Origin: Candidatus Accumulibacter cognatus
Lineage (GTDB): Bacteria > Pseudomonadota > Gammaproteobacteria > Burkholderiales > Rhodocyclaceae
DNA: 64,000 bases
Assembly: GCA_013414765.1 (NCBI GenBank)
Contig: CP058708.1
Span: forward strand, 3,095,553 to 3,159,552
Direction: 5' to 3'
Position 1 is the first letter of the stretch, and every line of letters starts with the position of its first letter. The notes below the pieces were generated by a model, which saw only the letters and a list, made by a program, of their open reading frames with translations, was not told where the DNA came from and searched no databases. Shown here in pieces: positions 8,144-39,061 of this stretch. The translations under genes were made by a program, and so were the position numbers.

Positions 8144-10126
8144 ATGAGCACGCTGCCAACGCCATCGTCCACCGATCAGGATTCGCCGCCGCCGTTCTGG
8201 ACGCTGGCCCGTCTGGCCGAGGCGCTGGAACATGTCTCGGCCAGACAGGGTGGCGCGGGCGCCGACGAACAGACGCTGGCGGAATTTGCCGCCGATGCTG
8301 AAGCACAACTCGGTTTGCTGGCGCTGCAACTCACCCAGGGCAGCTATCGTCCCGCGCCCGCCAGGCTCATTCCGGTGGCAAAGCCGGGCGGCGGCGTGCG
8401 CGAACTGCTGCTGCCCGCGGTACGTGACCGGATCGTTCAGTCCGCACTCGCCAGGTATCTGGCCGATCTCCTGGAGCCCGACTTCGGCGAAGCGAGCCAT
8501 GCCTATCGTCCCGGCCATTCGGTCGCAACCGCCCTGCACCGTCTGCAGGCGCTGCGCGATGGCGGTCTCGTCTTTGTCGCGGTGTGCGACATTCACCACT
8601 TTTTCGACAGCGTGGACCATCGGCGCCTGTTCTCCCTGCTCGACGATCTGCCGCTCGAACGGTGCCTGCGCGAACAGATGAAAACCTGCGTGCGCATCGA
8701 AGTGGCCGACGTGCAGGGACAAGGCGCCTGGAGCCTGGCGCGCGGCCTGGCGCAGGGGTCGCCGCTTTCCCCGGTGCTGGCGAATCTCTTTCTGATGGCC
8801 TTCGACGCGGCCTGCGCGCGCGCCGGACTGGCGCTGGTGCGCTACGCCGACGATTTTGTACTCGCCTGTGCCAGCGAAACAGAGGCGCAAAGCGCTCTGG
8901 CTTTTGCCGCCGACGCGCTGGAAAACATCGGCCTGGCGCTGAACACGCGGAAATCCCGGCTCGCTTCCTTTGCCGAGGGCTTCGAATTCCTCGGCGCTTT
9001 CTGCGGCGCCGAAGGGATGCTCGGCGGGCGGCCGGGCGAGGCGGCATGCCTGCCGCCGACCACTGGCCCTGTCCACGAAGCGGCGGCCGCCGATGACGAA
9101 CGTCCACCCAGCCACGGCCACCGGCCCCGTTTGCGCACCCTGTATCTGCTGGAAAACGGAGCCGTCCTGAACAAGGAGGGCGAACGCTTCATCGTTGCGC
9201 GCCACGGCGAAGTGTTGCTGCAGGTACCGATGATGCGCATCGACCAGATCATGGTGTTCGGCAACGTGCAGATCACCACGCCGGCCCTGCACGAATGCCT
9301 GGAGCGTGGCATTCCGGTCATGCTCCTTTCCGGGCGCGGCCGGTTCTTCGGGGTGATCGACCCGCTCGACGCGCGCAGCGTGCCCCTGCAGCGCGCCCAG
9401 TTTGCGCTGGAGAGCGACGAGCCCGCCCGGCTGGCGCTGGCCCGTCCGCTGATCGCCGGCAAGATCCTCAACTGCCGCACTTTCCTCGGCCGTCTGGCGC
9501 GGGCGCGGCAGACGAACATGGATGCGCCTCTTGCGGCGCTGAAATCGGCGGCGCAGGCCGCTGGGCAGGCCGCAGACCTGGAGATCCTGCGCGGCATCGA
9601 GGGCGCCGCGGCGCGCACCTATTTCGCCGCCTGGCAGACGGTGCTGCCGGCCAAGTGGCAGTTCACGGGGCGCAACCGCCAGCCGCCTACCGACCCGGTG
9701 AACGCGCTCCTCTCCTATGGCTACACGATCGTCTTCTACAACGTCCTCGCCCTGGTGCGGGCGCGGGGCCTCAACACGCACGTCGGCGTGCTGCACGATG
9801 TCCGGCCCGGCCATCCGGCGCTTGCCTCCGATCTGATGGAGGAATTCCGCGCCCCGGTGGTCGATGCGGTGGTGATGCATCTGGTGTTCGACGGCAAGCT
9901 GCAACCCGGCGACTTCTCCTGGCCCGAAACACCGGGTCAGCCATGCCTGATGGCCGATGGTTCGCGCAAGCATTTCATCCATCTGCTGGAGCAGAAGCTC
10001 AATACCACCGTCAGCCACGCCGGACAGCGGCTCGATTACCGCCGCTGGATGGACATGCAGGTGCTGCAGTACGCCGCCGCGTTACGCACGCCGGGCCTTC
10101 CGTACGTGCCTTTCGCTATCCGCTGA
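8144..10126 (+). CDS. cas1: Reverse transcriptase-Cas1 fusion integrase
   Basis: This fusion couples an RT to the Cas1 spacer integrase, which in characterised type III systems lets spacers be taken from RNA. About 660 residues. The RT part (roughly 70-310) shows the first catalytic Asp in AVCDIHHFFDSVDH (D149), ARGLAQGSPLSPVLANLFL and the YADD box at 234-237, all intact. The Cas1 domain starts near residue 329 (LRTLYLLENGAVL) and keeps its metal ligands: E486 in GIEGAAARTYF, H551 in GVLHDVRPG and the D563/E566 pair in ASDLMEEFR. No N-terminal Cas6 domain is present, unlike some relatives. The ATG at 8144 was chosen because upstream in-frame residues are low-complexity. It is six bases from cas2 and ahead of a leader and array. 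Confidence 0.95.
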   Translation: MSTLPTPSSTDQDSPPPFWTLARLAEALEHVSARQGGAGADEQTLAEFAADAEAQLGLLALQLTQGSYRPAPARLIPVAKPGGGVRELLLPAVRDRIVQSALARYLADLLEPDFGEASHAYRPGHSVATALHRLQALRDGGLVFVAVCDIHHFFDSVDHRRLFSLLDDLPLERCLREQMKTCVRIEVADVQGQGAWSLARGLAQGSPLSPVLANLFLMAFDAACARAGLALVRYADDFVLACASETEAQSALAFAADALENIGLALNTRKSRLASFAEGFEFLGAFCGAEGMLGGRPGEAACLPPTTGPVHEAAAADDERPPSHGHRPRLRTLYLLENGAVLNKEGERFIVARHGEVLLQVPMMRIDQIMVFGNVQITTPALHECLERGIPVMLLSGRGRFFGVIDPLDARSVPLQRAQFALESDEPARLALARPLIAGKILNCRTFLGRLARARQTNMDAPLAALKSAAQAAGQAADLEILRGIEGAAARTYFAAWQTVLPAKWQFTGRNRQPPTDPVNALLSYGYTIVFYNVLALVRARGLNTHVGVLHDVRPGHPALASDLMEEFRAPVVDAVVMHLVFDGKLQPGDFSWPETPGQPCLMADGSRKHFIHLLEQKLNTTVSHAGQRLDYRRWMDMQVLQYAAALRTPGLPYVPFAIR

Positions 10127-10132
10127 AGCCCC

Positions 10133-10417
10133 ATGGAACAGACCTGGCTCGTGACCTACGACGTGAGCGACGACGGCTGTCGCCGGCGGGTCGAGCGCAT
10201 CCTGCTCGGACACGGCGAAAGGGAACAGTACAGCGTCTTCCGCTGCCGTCTCTCGTCCCGCGAAGTGTGCGACCTGCGCGCCCGCCTGGCCGGTCATCTG
10301 AAAGGCAGCGACAGCATCCGCTATTATCCGCTCTGCGCCGCCTGCCTGCCGCGCCAGCCGCAGCGCACGCTGGTGGACTCGGCGGAAGCCGGCATTGCCT
10401 GGTACTTTGCGGTGTGA
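10133..10417 (+). CDS. cas2: Cas2 (first of a tandem pair)
   Basis: Cas2 dimers bridge two Cas1 dimers in the spacer-integration complex. This 94-residue protein has the ferredoxin-like Cas2 pattern: WLVTYDVSDDGCRRRV with the conserved Asp after the first strand, EREQYSVFRCRL, and the RYYPLCAACLPR strand. It starts six bases after RT-Cas1 and its TGA overlaps the GTG start of a second cas2. It is as divergent from that neighbour as from typical Cas2, so it is not a recent duplicate. Confidence 0.87.
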   Translation: MEQTWLVTYDVSDDGCRRRVERILLGHGEREQYSVFRCRLSSREVCDLRARLAGHLKGSDSIRYYPLCAACLPRQPQRTLVDSAEAGIAWYFAV

Positions 10418-10698
10418 ACACGCTGTTCGTTTTCATTTCCTACGACATCGCCGACCCCGGCCGCCTGCGGCGGGTCGCCACGCTGTGCGAAGGCTACGGC
10501 GAGCGGGTGCAGAAGAGCGTCTTCGAGTGCCACCTCAAGCCCGCCCAGTTGCAGGAATTGCGTGATCGCTTGGCGCGGATCGTCCGTCCTGACGAGGACA
10601 AGCTGTTCATCGCCACCCTGTGCCGCGCCGACGCCGCGCGCATTCTGGTGGACGGGCACGGCCATATCGCCCGGGACTGGGATTACTGGCTGGCCTGA
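10414..10698 (+). CDS. cas2: Cas2 (second of a tandem pair)
   Basis: The GTG start overlaps the upstream cas2 stop (GTGA). The 94-residue product is a canonical Cas2: FVFISYDIADPGRLRRV with the conserved Asp, GERVQKSVFECHLKPAQL, and DKLFIATLCRADA. It is closer to standard Cas2 than its neighbour. The pair could form a heterodimer with RT-Cas1, or one copy could serve another complex. The leader and CRISPR array follow directly. Confidence 0.93.
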   Translation: MNTLFVFISYDIADPGRLRRVATLCEGYGERVQKSVFECHLKPAQLQELRDRLARIVRPDEDKLFIATLCRADAARILVDGHGHIARDWDYWLA

Positions 10699-10914
10699 GA
10701 ACTTCGGGGCATATGGCGCTGGTGCACATTTTGCCGGACATGGCTTTTTGGACAATGGCTTGCGAAAATACTTCGGCATACGGGCGCCGCGTGTTGATTT
10801 TCAAGGGAAAAGAGGATTTTCGTGCGCCTGGACGGGAGCACGGGAGCGTTGTTTCGCCCGCGCCCCGAAAAGAGCCGTTAAATTCCTTGACGATCATCGG
10901 GTTGTGGAAGTAGA
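10699..10914 (+). promoter_or_regulatory. CRISPR leader
   Basis: This 216-bp non-coding stretch joins cas2 to the first repeat. It sits at the end with intact repeats, while the far end of the array is degenerate, so this is the leader side where new spacers enter and array transcription starts. A TTGACG at 10887-10892 could be a -35 box but no convincing -10 follows. No other gene is seen here. Confidence 0.7.
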
Positions 10915-12447
10915 GTGAAAACTAAGCCCTGCCGATAAAGGGATTGAGACATTTTTTACTCTCTTTCTTTTACTAAGTTTTTTTGTGAAAACTAAGCCCT
11001 GCCGATAAAGGGATTGAGACCGAATATCCTTTTTCGCATTGTCTGGGATATCGATCGGGGTGAAAACTAAGCCCTGCCGATAAAGGGATTGAGACCGAAT
11101 TCGTATCCGGCATTGGTTCCAGGACCCCATGTGAAAACTAAGCCCTGCCGATAAAGGGATTGAGACACGATATCGGATCCACGATCTAAGCGCTCCTTGA
11201 GTGAAAACTAAGCCCTGCCGATAAAGGGATTGAGACTTAGCGCCTTGTTCCATAGTTTCTCCTCTAACGGAGTGAAAACTAAGCCCTGCCGATAAAGGGA
11301 TTGAGACGTTAGTAGGTTGTCTCCATTACCGGTCAGATATGATGTGAAAACTAAGCCCTGCCGATAAAGGGATTGAGACTCACGGTTAAGGTCTACTTCG
11401 TCCGCCCTGTCGACTAGTGAAAACTAAGCCCTGCCGATAAAGGGATTGAGACGTGTCGGCCATTACCTCAGCAGCAGCTTTAGCTGCGGTGAAAACTAAG
11501 CCCTGCCGATAAAGGGATTGAGACAAAACATTGCTGACCCTATCAGAAATGAACAAGGGGCGTGAAAACTAAGCCCTGCCGATAAAGGGATTGAGACTTT
11601 TCGTAACCCGCGAAGGGATACTTCGAGAGCAGTGAAAACTAAGCCCTGCCGATAAAGGGATTGAGACCAGTCAGCGATGAATGACCCAGGAAGCATCTCC
11701 CAGTGAAAACTAAGCCCTGCCGATAAAGGGATTGAGACATGATGAGCGATGAAGTATAAGCCACAGCTTGACCTGTGAAAACTAAGCCCTGCCGATAAAG
11801 GGATTGAGACCCAATAATCGCTCTGTTGTAAGTCGAAAAGCAGGCGGTGAAAACTAAGCCCTGCCGATAAAGGGATTGAGACTCTGAGGCCTGGTTGGCT
11901 TGGAGGTTTATCACCCTCTGTGAAAACTAAGCCCTGCCGATAAAGGGATTGAGACCCGCCGGTCTCTCTCTGTCCCTTCTCTTTATTTCGTGAAAACTAA
12001 GCCCTGCCGATAAAGGGATTGAGACAATGAGTCTTAAAGCGCAGCGTGCTCGATTCACCTTGGTGAAAACTAAGCCCTGCCGATAAAGGGATTGAGACAT
12101 GTTACGTGAATCCCGAAAGGCGAATTCAAGAATTCGTGAAAACTAAGCCCTGCCGATAAAGGGATTGAGACCTCAGTTCGTTCGCCAGCTCATGATTCTC
12201 GTCCCACGTGAAAACTAAGCCCTGCCGATAAAGGGATTGAGACGTAGCTGAGGAAGCTACATCGGGAACCCCCTGCTGGGGTGAAAACTAAGCCCTGCCG
12301 ATAAAGGGATTGAGACCCATACGTCAGGGTTTGATTGTCATCTTCACTGTGGTAGTGAAAACTAAGCCCTGCCGATAAAGGGATTGAGACGCGAATTCAA
12401 GAACTCGGTTAGCCAGGCGAACAGTGTGAAAACTAAGCCCTGCCGAT
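10915..12447 (+). CRISPR. CRISPR array, 21 spacers, 36-bp repeat
   Basis: There are 21 complete, essentially identical 36-bp repeats (GTGAAAACTAAGCCC... to ...AAAGGGATTGAGAC) starting at 10915, 10985, 11060, 11131, 11201, 11272, 11344, 11417, 11489, 11562, 11632, 11703, 11775, 11847, 11920, 11990, 12063, 12136, 12208, 12281 and 12355. A 22nd at 12426 is cut after 22 bases at the IS boundary. Spacers are 34-39 nt. The repeat contains a CCCT/AGGG hairpin and ends in ATTGAGAC, the expected 8-nt crRNA 5' handle for Cas6 processing in type III systems, so transcription is rightward. Spacers are markedly lower in GC than the host; the first is under 20% GC. Confidence 0.99.
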
Positions 12448-16262: not shown

Positions 16263-16559
16263 TCACGCGATCGCCGCCGGCAAGCCGGTCCAGAGGATTC
16301 CCGCGGGCAGGCTGGCGCGTCCGATGCGGCCCTGAAAACCGCGTATCGGCAGCGCATAGCAGCGCAGGTCGTCGTCCTGCGGCTTGATCAGCGCGTCGAC
16401 CTCCCGCAGGCAGCGATCCTTGGCGGCGTTGCTGCCGACCAGCAGGAAAATGCTGTATTCGAGCGGGGAGGCGTGCTTGCACATCTCGCGGTGGACGCGC
16501 AACAGGCGGCGCGGATGGCTGATGTCGTAACCGATGACGAAAGCCTGTTCAGAAGTCAT
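16263..16559 (-). CDS. cas2: Cas2 of a second, broken adaptation module
   Basis: A 98-residue Cas2: FVIGYDISHPRRLLRVHREM with the conserved Asp, PLEYSIFLLVGSNAAKDRCL and DDDLRCYALPIRGF. Its start overlaps the end of the truncated cas1 by 11 bp. The open frame is intact, but its Cas1 partner has lost its N-terminal half. It could only work with RT-Cas1 or not at all. Confidence 0.92.
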   Translation of the reverse strand: MTSEQAFVIGYDISHPRRLLRVHREMCKHASPLEYSIFLLVGSNAAKDRCLREVDALIKPQDDDLRCYALPIRGFQGRIGRASLPAGILWTGLPAAIA

Positions 16560-17091
16560 CGTCGTCTACCTCGGCGTCGGTGTCGGTGGCCGGGGCAGTG
16601 CTGCCGGCCGGGCATGGCGCACCCGCCGCACCCGCTGCCGAAATCGCGTTCGCCACGTCGCAGATGCTCTCGGCGAGCAGCTTGCGCAGGCGTGCCGCCA
16701 GTGCCTCCCACTCGGCGTAGAAGCGCGCACGGCCGGCCTTGCCGAGCAGGCAGCCGCTCTGCGTACTGGAAAAATCCTCCGGGCGCAGCTTCTCCGAGCG
16801 AAACAGCATCAGCGCGTGCTGGTCGACATCGACGCGCAGCGGTTCGACGAGGTCGCAGGCCAGCGACTCGCGCCCGAAGTCGAGGGCGTGGTAGAAACCG
16901 ATGAACGGATCGAGCCCGGCGCCGTACAGCGCCAGCACCGCCTCGGCGTGCAGCAGCGTGTAGCCGAGCGAGAGCAGCGCGTTCGCCGGATCGCGCGGCG
17001 GCCGGCGATTGCGGCCATTGAAGTGCAGGCGAGCCGGCAGCAACTCGGCGAAACCCTCGAAGTAAGCAGCCGCGCCGGCGCCTTCGAGGCC
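16549..17091 (-). pseudogene. cas1: cas1, C-terminal half only, cut at an IS junction
   Basis: From the stop at 16549 the frame encodes the C-terminal helical domain of Cas1 with all catalytic residues: Glu in GLEGAGAAAYF, His in GFYHALDFGRES and the acidic CDLVEPLR motif. Upstream of about 17091 the sequence switches abruptly to internal IS sequence (the same stretch occurs from 27380), at the short shared string CGCGCAGCGC. The N-terminal beta-domain, needed for dimerisation, is gone, so the gene should be non-functional. It ends in an acidic tail DAEVDDDDF. Confidence 0.9.
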
Positions 17092-17793
17092 GCGCAGCGC
17101 TTCAACGGCGTCTGGGCGCGGCTCGGGCGTATCGCCCAGGCCGCAGAGCTGCCGACGCGCGCTCGTGAGCGCCTGGCCAAAGCGCAACGTCTGACTACCC
17201 AACTGCTGGCCACCCTCACCTTTTTCTTCGCCACCCTGCCGTTGCAGATCAAGGCCCTCGCGCTGCACCCGAGCTGGAGCGCGCCCTCGTCGAACAACTG
17301 ATTCCTGCCCTGTATCTGGAGCGCGTCGCCGCGCGCAGCACCCTTGCCGAGCCGCGTCACCGACTGCGCGCGCTGAGCCGCCCGTTGCTCGAACCGCTGC
17401 GCCACGGCGACCATTCGCTCCAGGCCTTGCCGAGCGCCGAGCGAGAGCGCCTGGAACAGGTGGCCGGCGACTGCACCGATCGCTTCCAGCGCAGCAGTTC
17501 CGGAGTGGCGGGCCGTAACGGACAACTGGCCCTGCATCACCAGGGCCGCCATCGCCTGAGCGACCGCAAGCTCGCGGCGCTCACCGCCGTGCACAACTAC
17601 TACATCCGTCGCGCCGACGGCACGACCGCCGCCGAGCGCTTTTTTGGCCGTGCCTACGAAACGTTGTTCACGCAGGCGCTCCAGCGCATGCCGTTGTCCC
17701 CACGATCCGCGCGACGGCGACCTCGACCGCACAAACCGCCCTATCTGATGCCGCTGGCGGCGTAGGGGGGTGGCCGGAACGATGATCAAGGCC
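17091..17793 (+). mobile_element. 3' fragment of a DUF6399-type IS (copy 1)
   Basis: About 700 bp nearly identical to 27380-28083, in the same orientation. It includes the transposase C-terminal part (VWARLGRIAQAAELPTRARE, then frameshifted GNGQLALHHQGRH-like and AERFFGRAYETLFTQALQRM segments) and the right terminal repeat GGCCGGAACGATGATCAAGG at 17772. The left end is missing: the fragment is fused directly to cas1. It is decayed by frameshifts. Confidence 0.92.
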
Positions 17794-28138: not shown

Positions 28139-29167
28139 CTAGGTGATTGTAGCTTGTTTTTCAACGAGTTGGCAGGGGTGTTCGCAAGTTTTCAATGGGC
28201 CTGTCGAGATGTCTCCCGTCAGGCCGTCGGTGAGCGTGTATCGCCCCAGTCCGAACACGGTTTCCTTGCCGACATGCAGCCATTCTCCGAGTTGCAGCAA
28301 CGGGGCGAAAGGCGCGAGCGGACCTTCGAGCCGCCAGGTTCCGACTACCCCGCCGAGGCTCATCTTCTGCTGCTGTCGCGACGAATAGCGGGTCCAGTCG
28401 AGCCAACGGAGGTTCTTCTCCTCACGGATGCCGGTACAGGCAGCGCGGAGCGTCGCGAAGTCATCGACCAGAGCACTCGGTGAATAAAACTCGGCAAGCA
28501 GGTTGGCGCGCCGCGCCAGCGCCATCAGCAGTGTTCGTGCCTGTAGTCTGTCCGGTGGCAGGGCACGGCCGTTCTGCTGTAGGCGCAGGGGGGTTTCAAA
28601 CCGGAGTGTGGCCGTGCTCGTCCGCGAATCGTCGGATTCGCCGACCAGCGCAATCCCCTGGTCATGCGTCGCAATCGTGCCGACTTCGGGGCGATGAATT
28701 TCCTGATCGCCGTGCTCACTGCAATGGACGACGCGGACGAGATCCGCCGTTCCGTCACCCGCACCGATGCCGCGTGCGAGGGCGCGCCGCCAGGTGAGGA
28801 GGATTAGCGGCAGTTCCTGCAACGCCCGCCCGATCAGCACCTGATGAAAAATCAGGGTCTCGCCCGCCGCCAGCACTCGACATCCCCAGTCCGACGGCTC
28901 GATGATGTAGGGGGCGGGAATCTGTGAGAACTTCTGCAGGCGATGCGCCGGGGGAGGGGGCGGGGCGAAGATCGCCGGATACGGGCAGGTGGCGAGCAGC
29001 GGACAGCCGGCACACTCCTTCTGCCGGGTCATGCAGGCAAGCTGGCGCAGGGCGTGGCCGAAGGCGCCGCGCAACATCGATCCGGCGTAGTCAGGCAGGC
29101 GGATGGTCTGCCGCACCTTAAACTCGAAGCGGTAGCGGGCGACCGGGAAAGTGTTGGCGGCGTTCAT
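28139..29167 (-). CDS. cas6: Cas6, pre-crRNA endoribonuclease (RAMP)
   Basis: Cas6 cuts repeat RNA to release crRNAs with an 8-nt 5' handle. The 342-residue protein is of the longer Cas6 type with a Cys cluster (CAGCPLLATCPYP) and the Gly-rich C-terminal RAMP motif KETVFGLGRYTL. The RNA-binding N-terminal fold (YRFEFKVRQTIRLPDYAGSM) is visible. Its ATG overlaps the csm5 stop (ATGA). The shared 3' half of both repeat types in this window suggests one Cas6 could process both arrays. Confidence 0.9.
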   Translation of the reverse strand: MNAANTFPVARYRFEFKVRQTIRLPDYAGSMLRGAFGHALRQLACMTRQKECAGCPLLATCPYPAIFAPPPPPAHRLQKFSQIPAPYIIEPSDWGCRVLAAGETLIFHQVLIGRALQELPLILLTWRRALARGIGAGDGTADLVRVVHCSEHGDQEIHRPEVGTIATHDQGIALVGESDDSRTSTATLRFETPLRLQQNGRALPPDRLQARTLLMALARRANLLAEFYSPSALVDDFATLRAACTGIREEKNLRWLDWTRYSSRQQQKMSLGGVVGTWRLEGPLAPFAPLLQLGEWLHVGKETVFGLGRYTLTDGLTGDISTGPLKTCEHPCQLVEKQATIT

Positions 29168-30780
29168 GAGGCACGCAGCACCGAGAGCTTGAGCTTCTTG
29201 CGCTCATCCTTGAGGTCGACCCTGACGACCTTTGGCAGCCAATGCTCGATGGCGTCGGCGGCGGCCTGTCGCTCGGCCTGCGGCCAGGCGGCGGCGTCGC
29301 CGGCGAGCGCCTTCGCCTTGGCGTGGTCCTCGCCATTGGCGTTTACCAGTTTGCCGCGCAACTGCTCGGCGCGGGCGGCGAAGTCGCTCTTGAACGCCTC
29401 GATACGGCGCTGGTTTGCGGTCATCGAGGCAAGACCGCGCTGCCTTTCCTGCTCGGCCGCGGCTTCGGCACACTCGGCCGCGGCTCTGGCCTGCTTCTCG
29501 CGGGCGAGGTTGGCCGCGGCTTCGGCGCGCTGCGCCTGTTCTTCCCGGAGGCGAAGCAGGCGATCCTGATGTGCTTCGCGCAGGAGTCTGCTGCGCGCCC
29601 CGAGTTGCTGTTGCACGGCGTCCGAGAGGTGGCGGTGACGGTCGTCGCAGGCGTCGACCCAGATCCAGCCGAAAGGCAGCAGCCCGCTGTCGCCGGCTCG
29701 GGTGAGGCTGGCGTAGCGCTTTTCGGTGGTATTGGGGCGAAAGTCGAAAGTTTGCCTGCCGTTGACGCGCGGGCCGAGGATTTTGATGCTGCGCAGGCCG
29801 CCGAGGGTCACCGATTCAGCGCCCGAATGGTGGCCGACGCGCAGCAGGAAACCCTGCCGTGCCTGGATCAGTTCGCCAAGTTCTTCGCCGAGAAGGCGGG
29901 AGATCAACCGCGCCCAGTCACGGTCGAGCAGCGCGCCGAGCACCGGGTGCTGCAGTTCGGCTTCGAGCTGCGGGCGGTAGAAGCCGTTGCAGGCGTCGCA
30001 GAGGGCTTCCCAGCGAATCGTCGCGCCGGGGCCGAAGCGCAGCTCGCCGAGGAAGGACGCCGGCAGCGCTTCCGGGATCGTTTCGAGGAACACCTTGAGT
30101 TCCGGCGATGGCCGTTCGTCGTCGCGTGGCGGGCGCTTCTTCTTGCTGATCGCGTAGAGCACGCGCGTCGGTGGCGGCGTGCTGTCTTCCTCGGGGTGCG
30201 CGTCGGCGAGCGCCAGGTGTCGGAAAGGATCGTTTTCGAACTTGCCGGCGGTGTAGCCGAGCAGACGCTGTTCGAGGCTGCGCGCGGCGCCTTTTTTGTC
30301 CTTCTCCTCGGCCGGAGTGAGTGGTGAATCGGCGTTCAGATGGTGCAGCCAGGCGGTGCGGATGCTGCCCTTGAGCGAGCTGCCGGGCAGATACGGGGTG
30401 CCGTCGAAAGGCCGGAAGGCGGTACGGGCGAACTGAAAGCTGTTGTAGGTGGCTTCGCCGCCGGGGTCGCGCTGCGTCGGCCGGCCGGCCTTTGTGGCGT
30501 ATTCGCGAGCGAGCTCCCCGGCGACGGCCACCTGCTGCGTGGCGAGTTCGGCAAAGCGCGCGGCGCCATCGCGAAAGAAACGCTGGATGGCGCCGATCGG
30601 GTCGCGTTGGTCGGCCATCGCGGCGAGGCGCTTGCGCTCGCTGTCGCTCAGCGATTCGGCAAGGTCGGCCGGGTCGAGGACGTGCAGCAGGTCCTCGTGA
30701 ATGACGAAGCCGCTCGGCTCATAGACTTCGCCGCAGCCGATGTGAACCGGCGAGAGGGTCGAGAGGGCCAGCGTGGTCAC
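29164..30780 (-). CDS. csm5: Csm5 with a long C-terminal coiled coil
   Basis: Csm5 caps the crRNA 3' end of the type III-A complex and recruits maturation nucleases. The GTG at 30778-30780 overlaps the csm4 stop (GTGA). RAMP features: LSTLSPVHIGCGEVYEPSGF, FQFARTAFRPFDGTPYLPGS, then SLKGSIRTAWL, and a Gly-rich LRSIKILGPR region. Residues about 400-538 form an Ala/Glu/Arg-rich heptad-like segment (LLREAHQDRLLRLREEQAQR... EAAAEQERQRGLASM) that typical Csm5 proteins of 350-400 residues lack. The full length is 538 residues. Confidence 0.88.
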   Translation of the reverse strand: MTTLALSTLSPVHIGCGEVYEPSGFVIHEDLLHVLDPADLAESLSDSERKRLAAMADQRDPIGAIQRFFRDGAARFAELATQQVAVAGELAREYATKAGRPTQRDPGGEATYNSFQFARTAFRPFDGTPYLPGSSLKGSIRTAWLHHLNADSPLTPAEEKDKKGAARSLEQRLLGYTAGKFENDPFRHLALADAHPEEDSTPPPTRVLYAISKKKRPPRDDERPSPELKVFLETIPEALPASFLGELRFGPGATIRWEALCDACNGFYRPQLEAELQHPVLGALLDRDWARLISRLLGEELGELIQARQGFLLRVGHHSGAESVTLGGLRSIKILGPRVNGRQTFDFRPNTTEKRYASLTRAGDSGLLPFGWIWVDACDDRHRHLSDAVQQQLGARSRLLREAHQDRLLRLREEQAQRAEAAANLAREKQARAAAECAEAAAEQERQRGLASMTANQRRIEAFKSDFAARAEQLRGKLVNANGEDHAKAKALAGDAAAWPQAERQAAADAIEHWLPKVVRVDLKDERKKLKLSVLRAS

Positions 30781-31730
30781 GGTGCGGACTCCAGAGCGAG
30801 GGGAGCAACGGGGGCATAGCCCTGTTGCACGGTGGCGGCTTCGGCCTTGGAGAGTCTGCCGGCGCCACCGAGACCCTGGCCGATGAAGGGACGGGCGGCA
30901 AAGCCGCTGGCCGGGACCAGTACGGCGCCGCTGGCGGCGAGCAGCACCGGCGTCTTGAACGGCTGGCCGGCGACCGCCAGGGTGTTGCCGTGGCGGCCGA
31001 AGCGGGTGAGCACGCGCCAGTAGCTTGACGTGCCGACGAAACCCTGGCCCTGCGGCGCGCACGGGGCGAGCGTCCAGTAGGCGTTGGCGCCAGCCGGGGC
31101 AGCAAAGGCCGTGGGTGCGATGCCTTCCAGCGTGAACTTGCCGAGGCCGACGCTGGCGTCGCGGCCGAAGCCGCTGCTGCCGATCGCCAAGAGCAGGCTT
31201 GCCGCCTCTGCCGCCGTGAGGCGTTCGCTATCGAGCACCAGGTAGAGATCGATGCGCTGTCCGGCGCTGTGGCAGGTCTGCGGCACGCTGTAGGGGGCAA
31301 AAGCGCCTTCTCCGGTGCTGCCGGTGAGGCGGTTGAGCGTGTTGTGCGCCTGCATGCTGCGCTGCGGCGCCTGACCGTAGGCCGTGGCGTCATCGACGGC
31401 GTTGGCGAGCTGGATGGCCAGACGCTCGCCGCTGCGCGCGGCGGCCAGCCAGCGCTGCCGTTTGGCGGCCTTGCGCTGTGCCGGATCATCCACGGTTGGG
31501 GAGAAATGCTGCGGCAGCGTCGGTCGCGGCAGGTAGCCCGCCGGGAAGCCATCAGAGACCACCAGCCAGGGACTTCCCTCGGTATAGCCTTGGAGGCGGC
31601 GGCGCAGTTCGGCCTCGCCGGCCGCTTCGCGCAGCGCCCAGCAGAGCTGGCCGAACAGCGTGTCGCCGGCGAGCGGCGTGCCGAGCGGGGTGTGTAGCGC
31701 CAGCGTGGCGCGATGGAGGACATGCGGCAT
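30777..31730 (-). CDS. csm4: Csm4, crRNA 5'-handle-binding RAMP
   Basis: The 317-residue protein has the Csm4 pattern: HTPLGTPLAGDTLFGQLCWA near the N-terminus, PWLVVSDGFPAGYLPRPTLP, SMQAHNTLNRLTGSTGEGAF and the Gly-rich SSGFGRDASVGLGKFTLEGI. Csm4 holds the crRNA 5' tag and contacts Cas10. It lies four bases after csm3 and overlaps csm5 by four. Confidence 0.9.
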   Translation of the reverse strand: MPHVLHRATLALHTPLGTPLAGDTLFGQLCWALREAAGEAELRRRLQGYTEGSPWLVVSDGFPAGYLPRPTLPQHFSPTVDDPAQRKAAKRQRWLAAARSGERLAIQLANAVDDATAYGQAPQRSMQAHNTLNRLTGSTGEGAFAPYSVPQTCHSAGQRIDLYLVLDSERLTAAEAASLLLAIGSSGFGRDASVGLGKFTLEGIAPTAFAAPAGANAYWTLAPCAPQGQGFVGTSSYWRVLTRFGRHGNTLAVAGQPFKTPVLLAASGAVLVPASGFAARPFIGQGLGGAGRLSKAEAATVQQGYAPVAPLALESAP

Positions 31731-31733
31731 GCT

Positions 31734-32444
31734 TCAGGCGCCCGTCGGGAAAAGGGGGAGGGCATCGAAAGTGGTCTGGATCGGGGTCCCGTCGAGTGCC
31801 AGCCCGCTCAGGGCCACCTTGCCGTAACCGCGCGAACCGGAACCGCCGAGACTGTCGGCGGTGAGCAGCTTCAGGCCGCGCAGCAGCAGCGGCAGCAGAT
31901 CCTCGTCGTCGATGACCTTCAGCGACAGCCGGAAATCGAACTCGGCACCGGCGATGACGCGCTCGGTGAAGCGCGGGTTTTCAGCGACGCCGGCGATGCG
32001 GTTGATCGAATTTTCGCTCTTGGCCTCGGTGCTGAGCAGGTTGCGCGCGTGGGCCTTGGCCAGCCACTCGGCATTGAGCAGGCAGTCCCAGAAGGCGATG
32101 CGGGTCGGTCCGATTTCATTGACCAGTCGGTCGACCTCGCCGCCAGGCGCGCCGCCGAACAGGCGCAGCAGATCGCGTGCTTCCCGGTTGTCGTGTGTGG
32201 CGAGGTGCTGGAACGAGAAGGGATGGCCGTTGCTGATGCCGACCAGGCCGAGCTGCCATTCGAGCAGCGAGCGGATCTTGCCTTTGAGCGATGATCCGGG
32301 GATGTACGGCTGGCCGTCGAGCGGATTCTTGACGACCGGGTTGTCGGTGCCGCCGATACGCATTTCGGTATCGCCGGCGCCGATGTGCAGGCCGGTCTTG
32401 AGGGTCAGTGTGGCGGTGAGCTGCTTGATCCGGGTGAGTTGCAT
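31734..32444 (-). CDS. csm3: Csm3, backbone RAMP and target-RNA nuclease
   Basis: Repeating backbone subunit that cuts target RNA every six nucleotides. The 236-residue protein carries GLHIGAGDTEMRIGGTDNPV, in which Asp34 corresponds to the known catalytic Asp of Csm3. It also has PYIPGSSLKGKIRSLLEWQL and the Gly-rich ADSLGGSGSRGYGKVAL loop. The nuclease site looks intact, so RNA cleavage is predicted. Confidence 0.95.
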   Translation of the reverse strand: MQLTRIKQLTATLTLKTGLHIGAGDTEMRIGGTDNPVVKNPLDGQPYIPGSSLKGKIRSLLEWQLGLVGISNGHPFSFQHLATHDNREARDLLRLFGGAPGGEVDRLVNEIGPTRIAFWDCLLNAEWLAKAHARNLLSTEAKSENSINRIAGVAENPRFTERVIAGAEFDFRLSLKVIDDEDLLPLLLRGLKLLTADSLGGSGSRGYGKVALSGLALDGTPIQTTFDALPLFPTGA

Positions 32445-32464
32445 TGTGTTTTTCTCCCTGGGGG

Positions 32465-32836
32465 TCAGGCGCGTAGCGCCTTGAGGAAACCGAGGACGGC
32501 TTCGAAGTGGAGGCGGAAGTGGTCGAGTGCCTTGGCGTTGGTGGTGGTCTTGAGGCAGTCACGGAACCACGAGACGAATTGCTCATCAACCAGTTGGCGC
32601 CCTTTGGCGTAGGCCACCTTGGCGTTGAGCATGCGGATGAAGGCCTCGTACTGGCGGAATTTCTCGTCATCGCCGTTGATGCGTTCCTGCCAGCCGACGA
32701 GTTCGTCATAGAAGCGGCGAATCTGTGTCGGCTTGTTGAGATGGCGGGCGGCCTGATCGAGTCGGGTGGCGACGTTCTCCGCTTCCGTGTTGAACAGTTC
32801 GGCGTCGGGTGGAATGGCAGCCAGATTGATGGGCAT
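32465..32836 (-). CDS. csm2: Csm2, small subunit of the type III-A complex
   Basis: A 123-residue, mostly helical protein: QIRRFYDELVGWQERINGDD, YEAFIRMLNAKVAYAKGRQL and FRLHFEAVLGFLKAL fit the Csm2 small subunit that lines the inner filament and contacts target RNA. It lies between cas10 and csm3, the usual place. Confidence 0.92.
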   Translation of the reverse strand: MPINLAAIPPDAELFNTEAENVATRLDQAARHLNKPTQIRRFYDELVGWQERINGDDEKFRQYEAFIRMLNAKVAYAKGRQLVDEQFVSWFRDCLKTTTNAKALDHFRLHFEAVLGFLKALRA

Positions 32837-32916
32837 CGTGGGTTCTCCTTGGGGTCATTGTGCGGCAAGTGGGCGACAGAATCTGCTACGACAAGCTTGC
32901 GATGTGCGTTCTTCGA

Positions 32917-35568
32917 TCACTCGCGCTGACGGTAGAGCAGGACCGATAGCGGCAGGCGGTAAGCACCCTTGTAGGTGCCGAGCGCGCCGCCGATTTCGCG
33001 AATGGCGTCGGCCAGCAACTGCTCGCGTCGATTGCGCGCGGTTTCATCGCCCTTGACACGGTCGCGGAAGAAGCGCGCCAGCCGGTAATGGAGCTGCGAG
33101 CGCCAGATGGCGTCTTTCGGGAGGGTGCTTTCGGCACGGTCGGAGAGCTGCAGCAGGGCGTAGATGAGGCCGCTGGAAAAGCTTGCGCCGTGGCCGCCGG
33201 CGCGTGCCATGAGCGCTTCGAGCGCGGCCCGGCGCTGTTCCATCAGGGTTTGCCACTCGGTCCACGAGACGCTGCGCTGCCAGAGCGTGACGGCGTTCTT
33301 GCCAGGACGGTTTTTGGCTGCTGCCAGGGCCTCTTCGGCGTTGCGAGCGAGCTGGCGGATCGGAGTTTTCGGGGGATTCATCGAGAGACCCGCCGAGAAG
33401 GTGATCTGTGGGTTGGCGACATAGGCCGCAAATCTCTCGCGTAGCGTTGTGGCCAGTACGAGCGTCGAATCCCAGGGGCCGATCAGAAAGAAGTCGTCGC
33501 CGCCGGCGAAGACGGTATAGGTGTTGCGGTAGCGGGCGATACCGTATTCGTCACGACCGTGTTCGCAGAACCACGGTAGCCAGAGTGCGAAGAAGGCATT
33601 GACCTGGCGCGACAGCGAGGCCATCTTGGCGAAGGTCGGTTTTTCAAGGCCTTTCTGGAAGATCTCGCCGAGATTGTCTATGTCGCCCTTGATCGTCACC
33701 AGCGCGATTTCGCCTTGCCAGCGGTCGCCGCCGGTTGCCTGGCGGTCTTCGCAGGCGATCAGGTTCAGCGTCTTGATCGCCGCGCTTTGCGGCTCCGCCT
33801 CGACTTCCCAGCGGCCGTATTTGCCGGCGGTCTGCGCGTCGCCGGCGTCGAAGCGCGGCACGTAGCTATTGACGAAGCGCCGCGCGTAGCCACGCCAGAG
33901 CGTGCCGTCGGCTTCGGCGGCGTCGAAGTCCCAGACGCGCAGCAGCGTACCGTTGCGGGCCAGTTCGCCGTACTTGCCGGATTCCTCGGCGCAGGGGACG
34001 ATCGCCAGACGGTAGCCGAAATAGTCGAGGCCGAGATAGTCGAGGCCGAGCACCGGTAGCGATTCGGCCACGCGGGCGACGAGCAGGCGGGCTTGCCGGG
34101 TCAGTTGTTCGCCGATGCGGATCTGGTCGTCGGCGAGCAGCGATAGCGCATAGCCGCGATTCGCCGAAGACACGGGGTCGGCCGGGTGGCGGCCGTTGAT
34201 CTCGCAGACACCGAGCGTGTTGTCGAAGCGGTCGAGAAAATCGTCGAAGGTGCTGGTCGCGTCGGCGGTGCAGAGGTCAAAACGCTGATGCTTGGCGGTG
34301 TCGAGCGCGGCGAACAGGCGTTTGGTGAGTCCACCGAAACGGTCAGCGGTAAAGTCGTTGCATGAGGCCGGCGTGCTGGCGAGGCCGACGCCGATCTCGC
34401 CGTAGGTGTGCTTCAGGCACCAGTCGTTGAGTTCCCGGCGGCAGCGCGCAATGGCGGCATGCGCGTCGGCGGTGTTCGGGGCGACGATCAGGAACTTGCC
34501 GGCGGCGTTGATGATCTGCGACGTTGACGGCAATTGCAGTGCTTCGAGCAGCTTGAGGGCTGCGCATTCGGCGAGCAGCGAGACCTGGAACGAGCGGCCG
34601 CGCAGCAGTTTGTGCGCGTGCTTCTGCGTTGCGCCGCCTTCGGCGAAGATGAAGTCCTGGATGCCGAAGAAGTCGCCCAGGACGAGCAGGATCTTTGCTT
34701 CGCTCCAGCCCTCGCGAACAGCGCGCGCGTCTTTGCTTCCCTGCTCGTGATGCCAGCGCCAGAGTGCCGTGGCCAGGGCGGCGGTGGCCTTGCTGTGATC
34801 GTAGAGCGAGACCTCGGGCTTGACGCCGAAAGCGGTGGCCGACGGGATGGCGTGCGTCATGGTCAGCCACAGACTGTCGAAATGGTCCAGCCAAAGCGGT
34901 AGCAAACCCAGATGCGCCTTCGGGATTTTCCGGATGCCGCTGAGCAGCGCTTCCCACAAGGCGAGGTACTCGGCGCGGGCACTGGCGTTGTCGTGCGGTG
35001 TGCACGCGGCGGTGGCTTGCGGGAAGATGCTGGCCGGCGAAAGCGCTTGCAGCGGGTAGCGCCATTCGAGCTTGCCTTCCTCGATGCTGGCCTGGCCGAT
35101 CTGTTCGAAGAGCGTCAGCAGGCGGGCACGATAATGGTTCTCGCGCTCCTTGCTGTGGTTGTACTTGACGTCGAACTCGTCGCGTTCGAAGCCGGAAGCG
35201 ACGCGATCCGCGGTAGCCACGATCCATTGCAGGAAAGTGTCGGGCCGGTGGTGCGCGCTGGCGGCGTTGACCGCCGAGTCGGTGGCGTTGCCCTCGGCCG
35301 CCGTCGAAAAAGGCCGACAGTCGCGGCGCAGGTCGGGGAAGTGACCGGTTTCTTCGAGAGCATCCCAGGCCAGGCCGGTATACGCGGCGTGGATGTGGCT
35401 GTGCCAGCCGGCACGTGGGTTGCTGCCTTCCTGGTGCCAGGGGCAGTACAGCGTCTTGTGGGCGTCGAGCCGGCCGTGATGCTCGATTCCGGCGCGTTCG
35501 GCGAGTTTGCCGACGTCGTGCATGAAGGCGGCCAGCGCGACGCGGGTAGACGGTTCGAGGAGGTTCAT
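32917..35568 (-). CDS. cas10: Cas10/Csm1 with HD nuclease and GGDD cyclase
   Basis: Large subunit of 883 residues. The HD motif AFMHDVGKLAERAG (H17-D18) predicts single-stranded DNA cleavage. The second Palm domain has the GGDD box in TVFAGGDDFFLIG near residue 690, predicting synthesis of cyclic oligoadenylates on target RNA binding. Both active sites look intact. The two adjacent CARF-domain genes are the expected receivers of that signal. The 18-bp gap to the upstream CARF gene indicates one operon. Confidence 0.95.
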   Translation of the reverse strand: MNLLEPSTRVALAAFMHDVGKLAERAGIEHHGRLDAHKTLYCPWHQEGSNPRAGWHSHIHAAYTGLAWDALEETGHFPDLRRDCRPFSTAAEGNATDSAVNAASAHHRPDTFLQWIVATADRVASGFERDEFDVKYNHSKERENHYRARLLTLFEQIGQASIEEGKLEWRYPLQALSPASIFPQATAACTPHDNASARAEYLALWEALLSGIRKIPKAHLGLLPLWLDHFDSLWLTMTHAIPSATAFGVKPEVSLYDHSKATAALATALWRWHHEQGSKDARAVREGWSEAKILLVLGDFFGIQDFIFAEGGATQKHAHKLLRGRSFQVSLLAECAALKLLEALQLPSTSQIINAAGKFLIVAPNTADAHAAIARCRRELNDWCLKHTYGEIGVGLASTPASCNDFTADRFGGLTKRLFAALDTAKHQRFDLCTADATSTFDDFLDRFDNTLGVCEINGRHPADPVSSANRGYALSLLADDQIRIGEQLTRQARLLVARVAESLPVLGLDYLGLDYFGYRLAIVPCAEESGKYGELARNGTLLRVWDFDAAEADGTLWRGYARRFVNSYVPRFDAGDAQTAGKYGRWEVEAEPQSAAIKTLNLIACEDRQATGGDRWQGEIALVTIKGDIDNLGEIFQKGLEKPTFAKMASLSRQVNAFFALWLPWFCEHGRDEYGIARYRNTYTVFAGGDDFFLIGPWDSTLVLATTLRERFAAYVANPQITFSAGLSMNPPKTPIRQLARNAEEALAAAKNRPGKNAVTLWQRSVSWTEWQTLMEQRRAALEALMARAGGHGASFSSGLIYALLQLSDRAESTLPKDAIWRSQLHYRLARFFRDRVKGDETARNRREQLLADAIREIGGALGTYKGAYRLPLSVLLYRQRE

Positions 35569-35586: not shown

Positions 35587-36759
35587 TTACGGCTTGAAGA
35601 GTTTGTTGCGCAGCGCCTTGAGCGTGGTGTGCAGGCGGCCTTCGTCGTCGAGGGTACGGGCTTCCTGCTCGGCACGCGGTCGGACGCCATGCGCGAGAGA
35701 ATTGCGCAGGTATTCCAGCTTGGCGACCTCGGGCTGCTGCGCGCGCGCACTGGCGTAATTTTTCTTGCGCAGTTCGAAGTCGGTGGGGTCGTCACTGCAC
35801 TGGTTGCAAGCACGCGTGACGAAAGCTTCGTACATGAAGGTGGCGGCGCGCAGGTAATCGCCGCGTTCGCGGTAGGCGTCGGCGAGCGACAGTTCCCAGT
35901 CGTCGCGCTTGCCGCGGCGAAACCAGCTGATGCGTTTCGTCAGCGTGTCCCTGAACAGGCTGCCGAGCGCCCCGACATGGGCTTCAACCGCAGAAAAGGC
36001 ACTGTTCAGCGTTTCGCGCGCACGCACGGGATTGCTCGTTCTCTCGAAGTAGGCAGCACGTGTCAGCAGGCGGGTTTGCCCTTCATCCATCCCGTCTGCC
36101 GCGAGCAGCGGTGCGAAAACGCCATAGTCTCCGTCCTTGTCGTAAGTGGCGAGCGCGTCGACCCAGTCGAGCATCTGCAGCAGGCCGCCGAGCGTGAGCA
36201 CCGGCGTCTCGCCATCGGGCGTCGTCATTTCGAGGGCACCGTAATAGAGTTGCTCGACCTTGACGCCGACGACGCGGGAAAGGTAGCGCGCAGCCACCAG
36301 TGCGAGCATCGGCAGGTGACGAAAACCGTGTGTGACGTCGAGGAAAAGGCTCTCTCCGGGCTGCACGATGCTGGCGAGCAGGTGGAGGATCTCGGCCTGC
36401 TCGGCGGCGTCGCGGGCGTAGGGGATGAGCAGACAATCGACGGGTATGCCGAGCTGCTGCTCGAGTTTTCGGCGTGGCAGTTCGAGCATGTCACGCGTGA
36501 CCTCGCCGGCCTCGACGGCGGCCATCAGCTGCAGTGTGGCATCGTCGTCGCCTCCGGGTGGGAAGAAGACATCCCACATGCTGCCGGCGGTGCCGACGAG
36601 AACGAGGCGATCGGGCTTCAGGTATTCGGTCAGGGCCATGCCGAAGAAAGCGACACGGCGGGAGAAGCCGGCTTCGAAGCGGTAGGTCGCGGTGCGGTAG
36701 CCGGTCTGCGGGTCTGCTTTGCCCTTGCCGAGAAAGCTGATGAGAGTGTTGATGGTCAT
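35587..36759 (-). CDS. TM1812-family CARF-HEPN ribonuclease (Csx1/Csx2-like)
   Basis: The N-terminal Rossmann-like CARF domain shows LISFLGKGKADPQTGYRTAT and the family hallmark LFLDVTHGFRHLPMLALVAA, which binds cyclic oligoadenylate. The C-terminal region carries YLRNSLAHG near residue 350, the R-x4-H active site of HEPN ribonucleases. When activated it should degrade RNA non-specifically, giving dormancy or abortive infection. 390 residues. Its ATG overlaps the stop of the NE0113-family gene (ATGA). Confidence 0.88.
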   Translation of the reverse strand: MTINTLISFLGKGKADPQTGYRTATYRFEAGFSRRVAFFGMALTEYLKPDRLVLVGTAGSMWDVFFPPGGDDDATLQLMAAVEAGEVTRDMLELPRRKLEQQLGIPVDCLLIPYARDAAEQAEILHLLASIVQPGESLFLDVTHGFRHLPMLALVAARYLSRVVGVKVEQLYYGALEMTTPDGETPVLTLGGLLQMLDWVDALATYDKDGDYGVFAPLLAADGMDEGQTRLLTRAAYFERTSNPVRARETLNSAFSAVEAHVGALGSLFRDTLTKRISWFRRGKRDDWELSLADAYRERGDYLRAATFMYEAFVTRACNQCSDDPTDFELRKKNYASARAQQPEVAKLEYLRNSLAHGVRPRAEQEARTLDDEGRLHTTLKALRNKLFKP

Positions 36760-37940
36760 GCTCCGGGAAGAATGTTGCTGATGGTGGCACCGATCTGCTG
36801 TGGCGCCTGGAAGGTGTCGTAACTGACCGCACTTGGCCGCAGGCCGAGGCTGTAGCGGCGCGGCCGGCTGCCGCCGTCGCTGATCAGGTAGGGCTCGGCC
36901 GCCGGGCCGAGTTCGCGCCTGAGAATCTTCTTGAGCTTCGAGAGGTGCGCCGAGAAATACTCGCCATCCATGCCTTTGCGCAGGGCACGCTCGGTTTCGT
37001 CGAGATCCTTCATTGGCCCGGCGATCCAGCGCAGTTCGACGAGATAGCGCTTCTTCCAGTCGGCATCGGCAAGTTCCTTGGCCGGCGCCGGCAACGGCGC
37101 TTCGCCGCGCAGCGCGCGCCGGGCGAAGACGCTGAGCAACGCGAGTTCGGCCGGCGGCAGCGCGAAGATCTTGCCGGCAGCACGCACGCGGCGCGCTTCG
37201 AGGTCGATCTGCAGTTCTGCCGGCGCCAGAGCGTGGCGCGCCGCTTCGACGGTTTCGTTGTAGCTCGCGCGACCGGTGAGCAGCGCTTCGGGAAGGCCGT
37301 GACGCAGGCTGACGAAGGGCAGTTCGGCGAGCGTGATCTGCGCTTGTGCGCTATCGACGAGTCGGCCGCCGGGCATTTCGAGAACGTGGCTGGCCGGCGT
37401 CGGGTAGTAGAAGCCGAGGCTGGCCTCGAAGGGCTCGGAAACCAGGACATGCGACAGCTTGTCCTGCGGGCGGCCGTAGAGCGACAGCGCATAGCCGAGG
37501 AAGAAGCCCATCGTCTTGCGGCCGCCGGCGATCGAGACATGGAGCGCACAATCCGGGTCGGCGGTGAACTCGCGGATGATGCCGGTGATGCCGTCGGCGG
37601 CGCGGCGGTTGTCTTCCGGCGAACGGATGTCTTCGAGCGGCTTGCCGTTGACGTCCTCGAGGACGTGGATGGTGTCGGCGCTGAAATGGATCGGCGGCAG
37701 CGCGTAGTCGCGGCTGAGACGGTGGAACCAGCCCGGTTCCTCCGAGAGCAACGCCAGGCGGGCTTTTTCGGCGCCGCTGCGCGTGCTGATCAGATGGATT
37801 TCGGTGGGAATGAACGGACTCGCTGTGGGCGCAACGGCCAGGGCGTAAAGGGTCTCGGTAACGATCTGCGGCGACAGGCCGGTGACGGCGATCAGGATGC
37901 GGCGAGGATATTCGTGGGGGTTTTCCCGGGCGTTGGGCAT
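36756..37940 (-). CDS. NE0113-family CARF protein with winged-helix-like C-terminus
   Basis: Residues 1-230 match the CRISPR-associated NE0113 (TIGR02584) family: RILIAVTGLSPQIVTETLYA, HLISTRSGAEKARLALL, HVSIAGGRKTMGFFLGYALS and GRPQDKLSHVLVSEPFE. Some databases call this group a ring nuclease. Residues about 255-375 (FALPPAELALLSVFARRAL... AHLSKLKKILRRELG and SRPRRYSLGL) look like a winged-helix DNA-binding domain of the response-regulator type. It heads the operon. It could destroy cyclic oligoadenylate, act as a signal-responsive regulator, or both. No HEPN motif is seen. Confidence 0.82.
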   Translation of the reverse strand: MPNARENPHEYPRRILIAVTGLSPQIVTETLYALAVAPTASPFIPTEIHLISTRSGAEKARLALLSEEPGWFHRLSRDYALPPIHFSADTIHVLEDVNGKPLEDIRSPEDNRRAADGITGIIREFTADPDCALHVSIAGGRKTMGFFLGYALSLYGRPQDKLSHVLVSEPFEASLGFYYPTPASHVLEMPGGRLVDSAQAQITLAELPFVSLRHGLPEALLTGRASYNETVEAARHALAPAELQIDLEARRVRAAGKIFALPPAELALLSVFARRALRGEAPLPAPAKELADADWKKRYLVELRWIAGPMKDLDETERALRKGMDGEYFSAHLSKLKKILRRELGPAAEPYLISDGGSRPRRYSLGLRPSAVSYDTFQAPQQIGATISNILPGA

Positions 37941-38182
37941 CGTCTTGTCTGAGCGGGTAGGGACAGACGGTCATTGTCCCTGTTTTTCTCCGGCAAGGAC
38001 GGATGGCAAGCTTGCGGCTTGCGGTGGCCAGGCTGGGGGCTGGCCGGTTCGTGGCGATCGAACAGGACTGGCCGTGGCCAGCGATAGCGCGAATGCCGCA
38101 GCAGGGGCCCGCCTCGGGCGGCCTGCTGCAGGTGGTCAAGAAGCCAATGTGGCTCTTGAATGGCCAGGCTTTGATGGGTGGT

Positions 38183-39061
38183 TCATACGCCGTGCTGCCT
38201 GAACCAGGCCTGCAGGCGACGCCAGCCGTCGTCGGCCTCGGTCTTGCGGTAACTCGGCCGGTAATCGGCGTGGAAAGCGTGCGGCGCCTGGTCATAGACA
38301 TGGATCGTCGAGGCCTTGCTGGCCGGATCGGCCGATTCGGCAAGGGCCTTGCGCATCTTCTCGACGCTGTCGAGCGGGATGCCCTGGTCGAGTCCGCCAT
38401 AGAGCCCCAGCACCGGCGCGTACAGCTTGCCGGCGATGTCGAGCGGGTGCCGCGGGTTGAGTTCGCTGGGCACGCCGACGATCCGGCCATACCAGGCGAC
38501 ACCGGCCTTGAGCCGCGGATTGTGCGCCGCGTACAGCCAGGTGATGCGGCCGCCCCAGCAGAAACCGGTGATGCCGAGGCGGGCAGCATTGCCGCCATGC
38601 GCCACGGCCCAGGCCACGCAGGCGTCGAGGTCGGCCAGCACCTGCGCATCGGGCACCTTGCTGACCACCTTGCCGAGCAATTCCTCGATGTTGCTGTACT
38701 GGCGCGGGTCGCCCTGGCGTGCGTAGAGTTCGGGGGCGAGGGCGAGGTAGCCGAGCTTCGCCAGGCGGCGGCAGACGTCCTTGATGTACTCATGGACGCC
38801 GAAAATCTCCTGCACCACCAGGATGATCGGCCAGTTGCCGCCGCTCGCGGGCTGTGCGCGATACGCCGGCATTTCGCCATCGCCGGTCGTCACCTTGATC
38901 TCGCCGGTGCTGAGGCCGACGCTGTCGGTCGTGATCACCGTCTGTGCAACGACCGGCTGTACCGCCAGTGCGAAACCGGCACCGATGGCGCTGACCATGA
39001 ACTGCCGGCGGTTGAAGGGAACGGCAGGAAGCAGACTGTCGAAATCGCTGTAGTCACGCAT
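38183..39061 (-). CDS. Dienelactone hydrolase family protein, Tat-exported
   Basis: An alpha/beta hydrolase with the Cys nucleophile motif [26 protein letters not shown] and the C-terminal catalytic His in [14 protein letters not shown]. The N-terminus has a twin-arginine signal ([19 protein letters not shown]), so the enzyme should work in the periplasm. Family members open lactone rings in chloroaromatic degradation, but many have other ester substrates. ATG 39061 is preceded by GAGGAG. 292 residues. Confidence 0.88.

Follow-up and report, generated by a model that had tools for sequence, protein, structure and literature searches.

We analysed a 64,000-nucleotide stretch of the complete 5.17 Mb genome of Candidatus Accumulibacter cognatus (contig CP058708.1, positions 3,095,553-3,159,552), hereafter the window, which carries a CRISPR adaptation module consisting of a gene for a reverse transcriptase (RT)-Cas1 fusion protein, two cas2 genes, a putative leader and an array. 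In window coordinates, the parts of the module are as follows.

8144-10126, plus strand: RT-Cas1 fusion, 660 amino acids, recognised as an open reading frame (ORF) with the Pfam domains RVT_1 and Cas_Cas1 and by alignment with relatives.
10133-10417, plus strand: cas2a, 94 amino acids, Pfam CRISPR_Cas2 (1.2e-16), with the clade signature YP-L/I-C-x-x-C near the C-terminus.
10414-10698, plus strand: cas2b, 94 amino acids, GTG start, Pfam CRISPR_Cas2 (1.3e-21), with the clade signature L-C-x-x-D ... G-x-G.
10699-10914, plus strand: putative leader, 216 bp between cas2b and the first repeat, assigned by position only.
10915-12447, plus strand: CRISPR array of 21 perfect 36-nucleotide repeats, a degenerate terminal repeat and 21 spacers.

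The RT-Cas1 protein is encoded in a single ORF, in which Pfam detected RVT_1 at residues 79-284 (1.7e-29) and Cas_Cas1 at residues 333-616 (4.5e-88). The RT domain has the catalytic YADD box at residues 234-237, and the Cas1 catalytic residues, E486 (in RG-x-E-G), H551, H557 and D563, are all invariant in the alignment with relatives. The locus therefore has the makeup of an RT-Cas1 fusion module, that is, a YxDD RT fused to Cas1, intact Cas1 residues, and cas2 and an array next to it.

The two cas2 genes overlap by 4 nucleotides, the GTG of cas2b lying at 10414 and the TGA of cas2a at 10415-10417, and their products share about 33% identity; across the clade described below, the identity of Cas2a and Cas2b within a locus is about 30-46%. 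Each protein matches the Cas2 chains in Cas1-Cas2 complexes of known structure (7kft and 8d3l, for example), and alignments show the conserved Asp and the C-terminal hydrophobic tail in both. The AlphaFold monomer models had pLDDT values of 81.8 for Cas2a, with ferredoxin-like secondary structure and an unreliable C-terminal tail, and 81.9 for Cas2b, with an unreliable C-terminal part. These models suggest that both proteins adopt the expected Cas2 fold, and as monomer models they are uninformative on the choice of dimer partner. The initial annotation of this DNA had described an RT-Cas1 with a YADD box and all Cas1 metal ligands, two coupled but clearly different Cas2 proteins, a leader and a 21-spacer array, and the domain searches and alignments agree with that description, the leader being so called from its position.

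RT-Cas1 relatives were collected by whole-genome searches and one scan of 84,980 genomes (80 loci); three other loci were added, and one locus (L037) is a duplicate of another (L027). A Cas2 profile was run on every ORF of the RT-Cas1 loci. Two diverged cas2 genes were present in all 18 loci of the clade to which the window's RT-Cas1 belongs, so that none of these members has the canonical arrangement of a single cas2 per module; most of the other RT-Cas1 lineages examined have a single cas2. The order RT-Cas1-cas2a-cas2b was found in 15 clade loci including the window, two loci (L079 and L091) have one cas2 on either side of RT-Cas1, and in one (L032) a contig end cuts the second cas2, the start of which is readable. 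At most loci the module genes are separated by a few bases or overlap by 4 nucleotides. Loss of either cas2 was not seen in the 18 loci, and neither cas2a nor cas2b contained a frameshift at intact loci. A survey of homologous loci had been proposed in the initial annotation, and it turned up no member of the clade in which one cas2 remained and the other had decayed.

In the RT-Cas1 tree, a branch with a Shimodaira-Hasegawa-like approximate likelihood ratio (SH-aLRT) support of 95 split the 18 rows with two cas2 genes from 60 other rows, which have one cas2 or lie on contigs too short to tell. With the RT domain alone, a single clade of the 18 fitted at least as well as the free tree (approximately unbiased [AU] test, p 0.846), the tree constrained to that clade being 16 log units better. 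The Cas1-only tree placed the 18 rows in several groups, a break that lacked strong support. Because the Cas1 domain alone breaks up the 18, a single origin of the two-cas2 clade is likely rather than certain. In the Cas2 tree, the 15 Cas2b proteins grouped together (95/90), and the AU test did not reject a common group for Cas2a (p 0.32); this is the pattern that one old duplication would leave. A local duplication as the source of the second cas2 was rejected, since cas2a and cas2b from different genomes group by type and not by genome.

The ratio of nonsynonymous to synonymous substitution (dN/dS) in close pairs was mostly 0.05-0.26 for both cas2a and cas2b, similar to that of RT-Cas1, with some comparisons saturated; for the cas2b of L079 and L091 it was 0.56. 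Both genes are under purifying selection. After allowing for RT-Cas1 distance, the distances of Cas2a and Cas2b were still correlated (partial r 0.34, permutation p 0.0014), which points weakly to co-evolution. Taken together, these data show two intact, adjacent and coupled cas2 genes, which the whole clade retains and which evolve under purifying selection.

Paired cas2 genes were also found outside this clade. A search for the Cas2 family across 369 genomes of the class located 150 places, spread over 95 genomes; by our own count from the table, 62 of the 150 form 31 pairs whose members are no more than about 2.3 kb apart. Twenty-eight of these close pairs were fetched and read. Seven loci (L111-L116 and L118) have the order cas2-cas2'-cas1-RT, in which the RT has a gene of its own, as Pfam confirmed in the two loci tested; we call this arrangement type B. 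Most of the remaining pairs (L119-L127 and L131-L138) have the order cas2-cas1-cas1'-cas2' and no RT (type C; for example, L122:5915-8190 and L125:6043-8518), and several of these type C modules adjoin type III or CARF genes. Among the paired modules as a whole (L111-L138), type III genes were nearby in several cases. The cas1' product of type C is about 255 amino acids long. Its match to Cas1 is confined to the N-terminal part: Pfam values for five examples ranged from 2.8e-8 to 5.1e-4, and four of the five passed the cut-off. In the alignment, none of the catalytic residues (the glutamate of RGxEG, the histidine and the aspartate) is present. Since type C modules pair Cas2 proteins without an RT, the idea that pairing is a trait of RT modules was rejected.

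The window itself carries a broken second adaptation module of this other kind (16266-17268, minus strand), which lies between the array and the effector genes described below, 4 kb downstream of the array.

16552-17268, minus strand: remnant cas1, of the type C kind by the Cas1 tree, with just the C-terminal half left (the match is limited to positions 145-282 of the Pfam profile).
16266-16559, minus strand: cas2 of the remnant module (Pfam 9.6e-8), grouped in the Cas2 tree with the second Cas2 of types B and C.

A probable transposase fragment, recognised by eye, is located at 17385-17765 on the plus strand, where the N-terminal part of the remnant cas1 would be.

The first Cas2 proteins of types B and C formed one group in the Cas2 tree (91) and the second Cas2 proteins another (99), the latter including the remnant cas2. 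In the Cas1 tree, types B and C made up one group (99) apart from the window's clade, with the remnant cas1 within type C, and therefore Cas2 pairing is present in at least two Cas1 lineages. One further locus (L117:5623-6228, plus strand) has a 202-residue ORF with two Cas2 domains directly before cas1, matched by Pfam in two stretches (2e-19). One half of this fusion grouped with the first Cas2 of type B (99) and the other fell among the second Cas2 proteins of types B and C (99), so that paired paralogues are joined in one chain, which is what a heterodimer predicts.

Comparison with described systems places the window among RT-Cas1 modules and sets it apart by its second Cas2. The best match of its RT-Cas1 in the PDB is the Thiomicrospira Cas6-RT-Cas1-Cas2 complex (7kft, 2.3e-112). 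In that system and in the one of Marinomonas mediterranea MMB-1, RT and Cas1 are likewise fused, beside Cas2, and linked to type III, but one Cas2 is described, which forms a homodimer in the complex, and Cas6 is part of the fusion (PMC8102632, PMC11014452), whereas the window has two Cas2 proteins and no Cas6 domain. The RT domain adjoins the central Cas2 dimer in the solved complex (PMC8102632). The type III-D RT-Cas1/Cas2 systems of Fusicatenibacter saccharivorans and Vibrio vulnificus also lack Cas6 in the fusion, and acquisition of spacers from RNA has been reported for them (PMC11014452); they have a single Cas2 as described, unlike the window with its type III-A effector and paired Cas2. 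Types B and C resemble the window in having two diverged Cas2 proteins per adaptation module and differ from it in their Cas1 and Cas2 lineages, in an RT that is separate or absent and, for type C, in an added non-catalytic Cas1 paralogue.

In known complexes, two Cas1 dimers are bridged by a central Cas2 dimer. The canonical integrase has four Cas1 around two Cas2, and the same hexamer would be expected for the window, but the canonical Cas2 dimer is homomeric with C2 symmetry, whereas the window encodes two different Cas2 proteins. The type I-F integrase (Cas1-2/3) is C2-symmetric as well, with active and inactive Cas1 subunits, half of them being inactive in position (PMC12259127).

The module is the adaptation part of a type III-A system, and we consider it probable that its RT-Cas1 integrase is built around an obligate Cas2a-Cas2b heterodimer. 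Such a heterodimer would sit at the centre of the integrase in place of the usual Cas2 homodimer, with two RT-Cas1 dimers flanking it; new spacers, derived from DNA or from reverse-transcribed RNA, would go in beside the leader (10699-10914). With unlike Cas2a and Cas2b halves, the integrase would have non-equivalent ends, which could help to determine which of them meets the leader or how the RT lobes are positioned. The co-retention of the two genes, their tight coupling and the natural fusion in the B/C lineage support a heterodimer indirectly; the heterodimer itself, the asymmetry and its purpose are inferred.

Several points weigh against this reading. The case for contact between Cas2a and Cas2b is indirect, and separate homodimers, each with its own use, would likewise be kept by selection. 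Neither the Cas1-only nor the RT-only tree by itself recovers the 18 rows as one clade, and the RT domain of the window lies on a long branch in the RT tree. The window's Cas2a is off the clade pattern at positions that are usually conserved (VFEC to VFRC, RVQ to REQ), such departures being no more frequent than in some relatives. The fusion is a single case from one draft genome; it has a long branch in the tree and belongs to the B/C lineage, outside the window's clade. When 39 genomes of that genome's family were searched, no second Cas2-Cas2' fusion turned up.

Other explanations of the pair were weighed against the same data. One of the two Cas2 proteins might be the integrase subunit while the other has another job, for example as an RT regulator or a separate nuclease. 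A known integrase needs only one type of Cas2, and the C-terminal tail of the window's Cas2a is the more divergent; the C-terminal region of Cas2 contacts Cas1 in known complexes. However, the Cas2 family match of both proteins covers most of the profile, both match the Cas2 chains of Cas1-Cas2 structures, and the Asp and the hydrophobic tail are conserved in both, so that we regard such a split of roles as rather unlikely. A further reading takes the second cas2 for a duplicate that is redundant or in decay. It would fit with the general frequency of duplicated small genes and with the decayed module downstream of the array, but the single old duplication kept at all 18 loci, the purifying selection on both genes and the reading frames free of frameshifts make it highly improbable, and conservation has largely refuted it.

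It is also conceivable that two integrases share RT-Cas1, with Cas2a homodimers serving one kind of prespacer, such as RNA or RNA/cDNA, and Cas2b homodimers another, namely double-stranded DNA. The clear divergence of the two proteins within each locus and their different, retained signatures would suit such a division. Nevertheless, most RT-Cas1 lineages have one Cas2, RT-Cas1/Cas2 systems described with one Cas2 acquire both RNA and DNA (PMC11014452), type C has two Cas2 proteins and no RT, neither gene has been lost in any of the 18 loci, and the B/C fusion ties the pair physically. Because single-Cas2 RT-Cas1 systems acquire RNA and paired Cas2 occurs without RT, separate complexes for DNA and RNA capture are unlikely. 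The initial annotation had raised both a Cas2 heterodimer and separate DNA and RNA capture complexes; the former has gained indirect support, and the latter has fared poorly.

The array begins beside the putative leader, its perfect repeats spanning 10915-12390 and the degenerate terminal repeat lying at 12426, at the end far from the leader. All 21 spacers are distinct and 34-39 nucleotides long, and the repeat is unique to this array in the genome. The G+C content of the spacers (10951-12425) is 48% and that of the window 63%, which hints that their source is lower in G+C. A search for that source gave no match in the phage collection and no trustworthy match in the plasmid collection, and comparison of the spacers with their own genome gave nothing beyond chance. 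The single plasmid match (69%, in four pieces over many repeat units) was rejected as repeat similarity.

At a distance of 15 kb from the adaptation module, the minus strand encodes an intact-looking type III-A effector, which extends from about 36.8 to 28.1 kb.

35590-36759, minus strand: Csx1-like CARF-HEPN ribonuclease (PADLOC 2.5e-153) with an RNSLAH motif.
32920-35568, minus strand: Cas10/Csm1 with HD and GGDD motifs (PADLOC Cas10a 4.8e-153; Pfam).
31737-32444, minus strand: Csm3 (PADLOC 6e-63).
30780-31730, minus strand: Csm4 (PADLOC 9.1e-103).
29167-31062, minus strand: Csm5-like RAMP (PADLOC 6.1e-18, residues 99-257); the start codon is uncertain and the listed ORF overlaps csm4.
28142-29167, minus strand: Cas6 (PADLOC 9.6e-102; Pfam 3.4e-18).

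The presence in one region of Cas10 with HD and GGDD motifs, Csm3, Csm4, Csm5 and Cas6 identifies the system as type III-A (Csm). No match to Csm2 was found in the operon. The csm2 gene often sits between cas10 and csm3, and a 250-residue ORF at 32119-32868 on the minus strand, between these two genes, has no family match. Beside csx1, a 508-residue ORF (37354-38880, minus strand) has no Pfam or PADLOC match, and part of it shows a 34% resemblance to a segment close to RT-Cas1 in locus L037. In a family search, Cas10 was above the cut-off in 14 of the 16 relatives' genomes, which indicates its presence in the genome and not its linkage to the module in each. Elsewhere in the genome there is a separate, complete-looking cas operon (L109, G000:C1:4472988-4483100) with its own array of about 30 repeats; its gene order, read by eye as cas3-, cas5-, cas8-, cas7- and cas4-like genes followed by cas1 and cas2, suggests type I-C.

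Adaptation by RT-Cas1 is already known. As far as the literature could be searched, the conserved Cas2 pairing and its recurrence seem not to have been described before, and the same holds for the fusion and for the Cas1 partner that looks catalytically dead. Our search found no mention of two cas2 genes beside RT-Cas1 and no paper describing the cas2-cas1-cas1'-cas2' modules of type C; figures and subscription papers were outside its reach, so that prior notice of the former is possible. The paired-Cas2 RT-Cas1 modules are new parts for RNA-recording tools based on RT-Cas1.

How known integrases tell the two ends of a spacer apart is an open question, because they are centred on a Cas2 homodimer and are C2-symmetric. 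Tentatively, we propose that the CRISPR integrases of Proteobacteria and their neighbours include a genetically asymmetric class, in which unlike proteins occupy the two central Cas2 positions and, in one lineage, the catalytic and non-catalytic Cas1 positions as well. Such an arrangement would hard-wire orientation or a division of labour; we take this possibility seriously while rating it somewhat short of probable. The class would comprise at least two lineages, the window's clade being one. If this is true, dedicated proteins would supply what the usual C2-symmetric complex has to obtain from the protospacer-adjacent motif, Cas4 or host factors. The unlike Cas2 pair, the fusion and the non-catalytic Cas1 paralogue would then be natural systems in which the asymmetry of the integrase may be encoded in the genes themselves.

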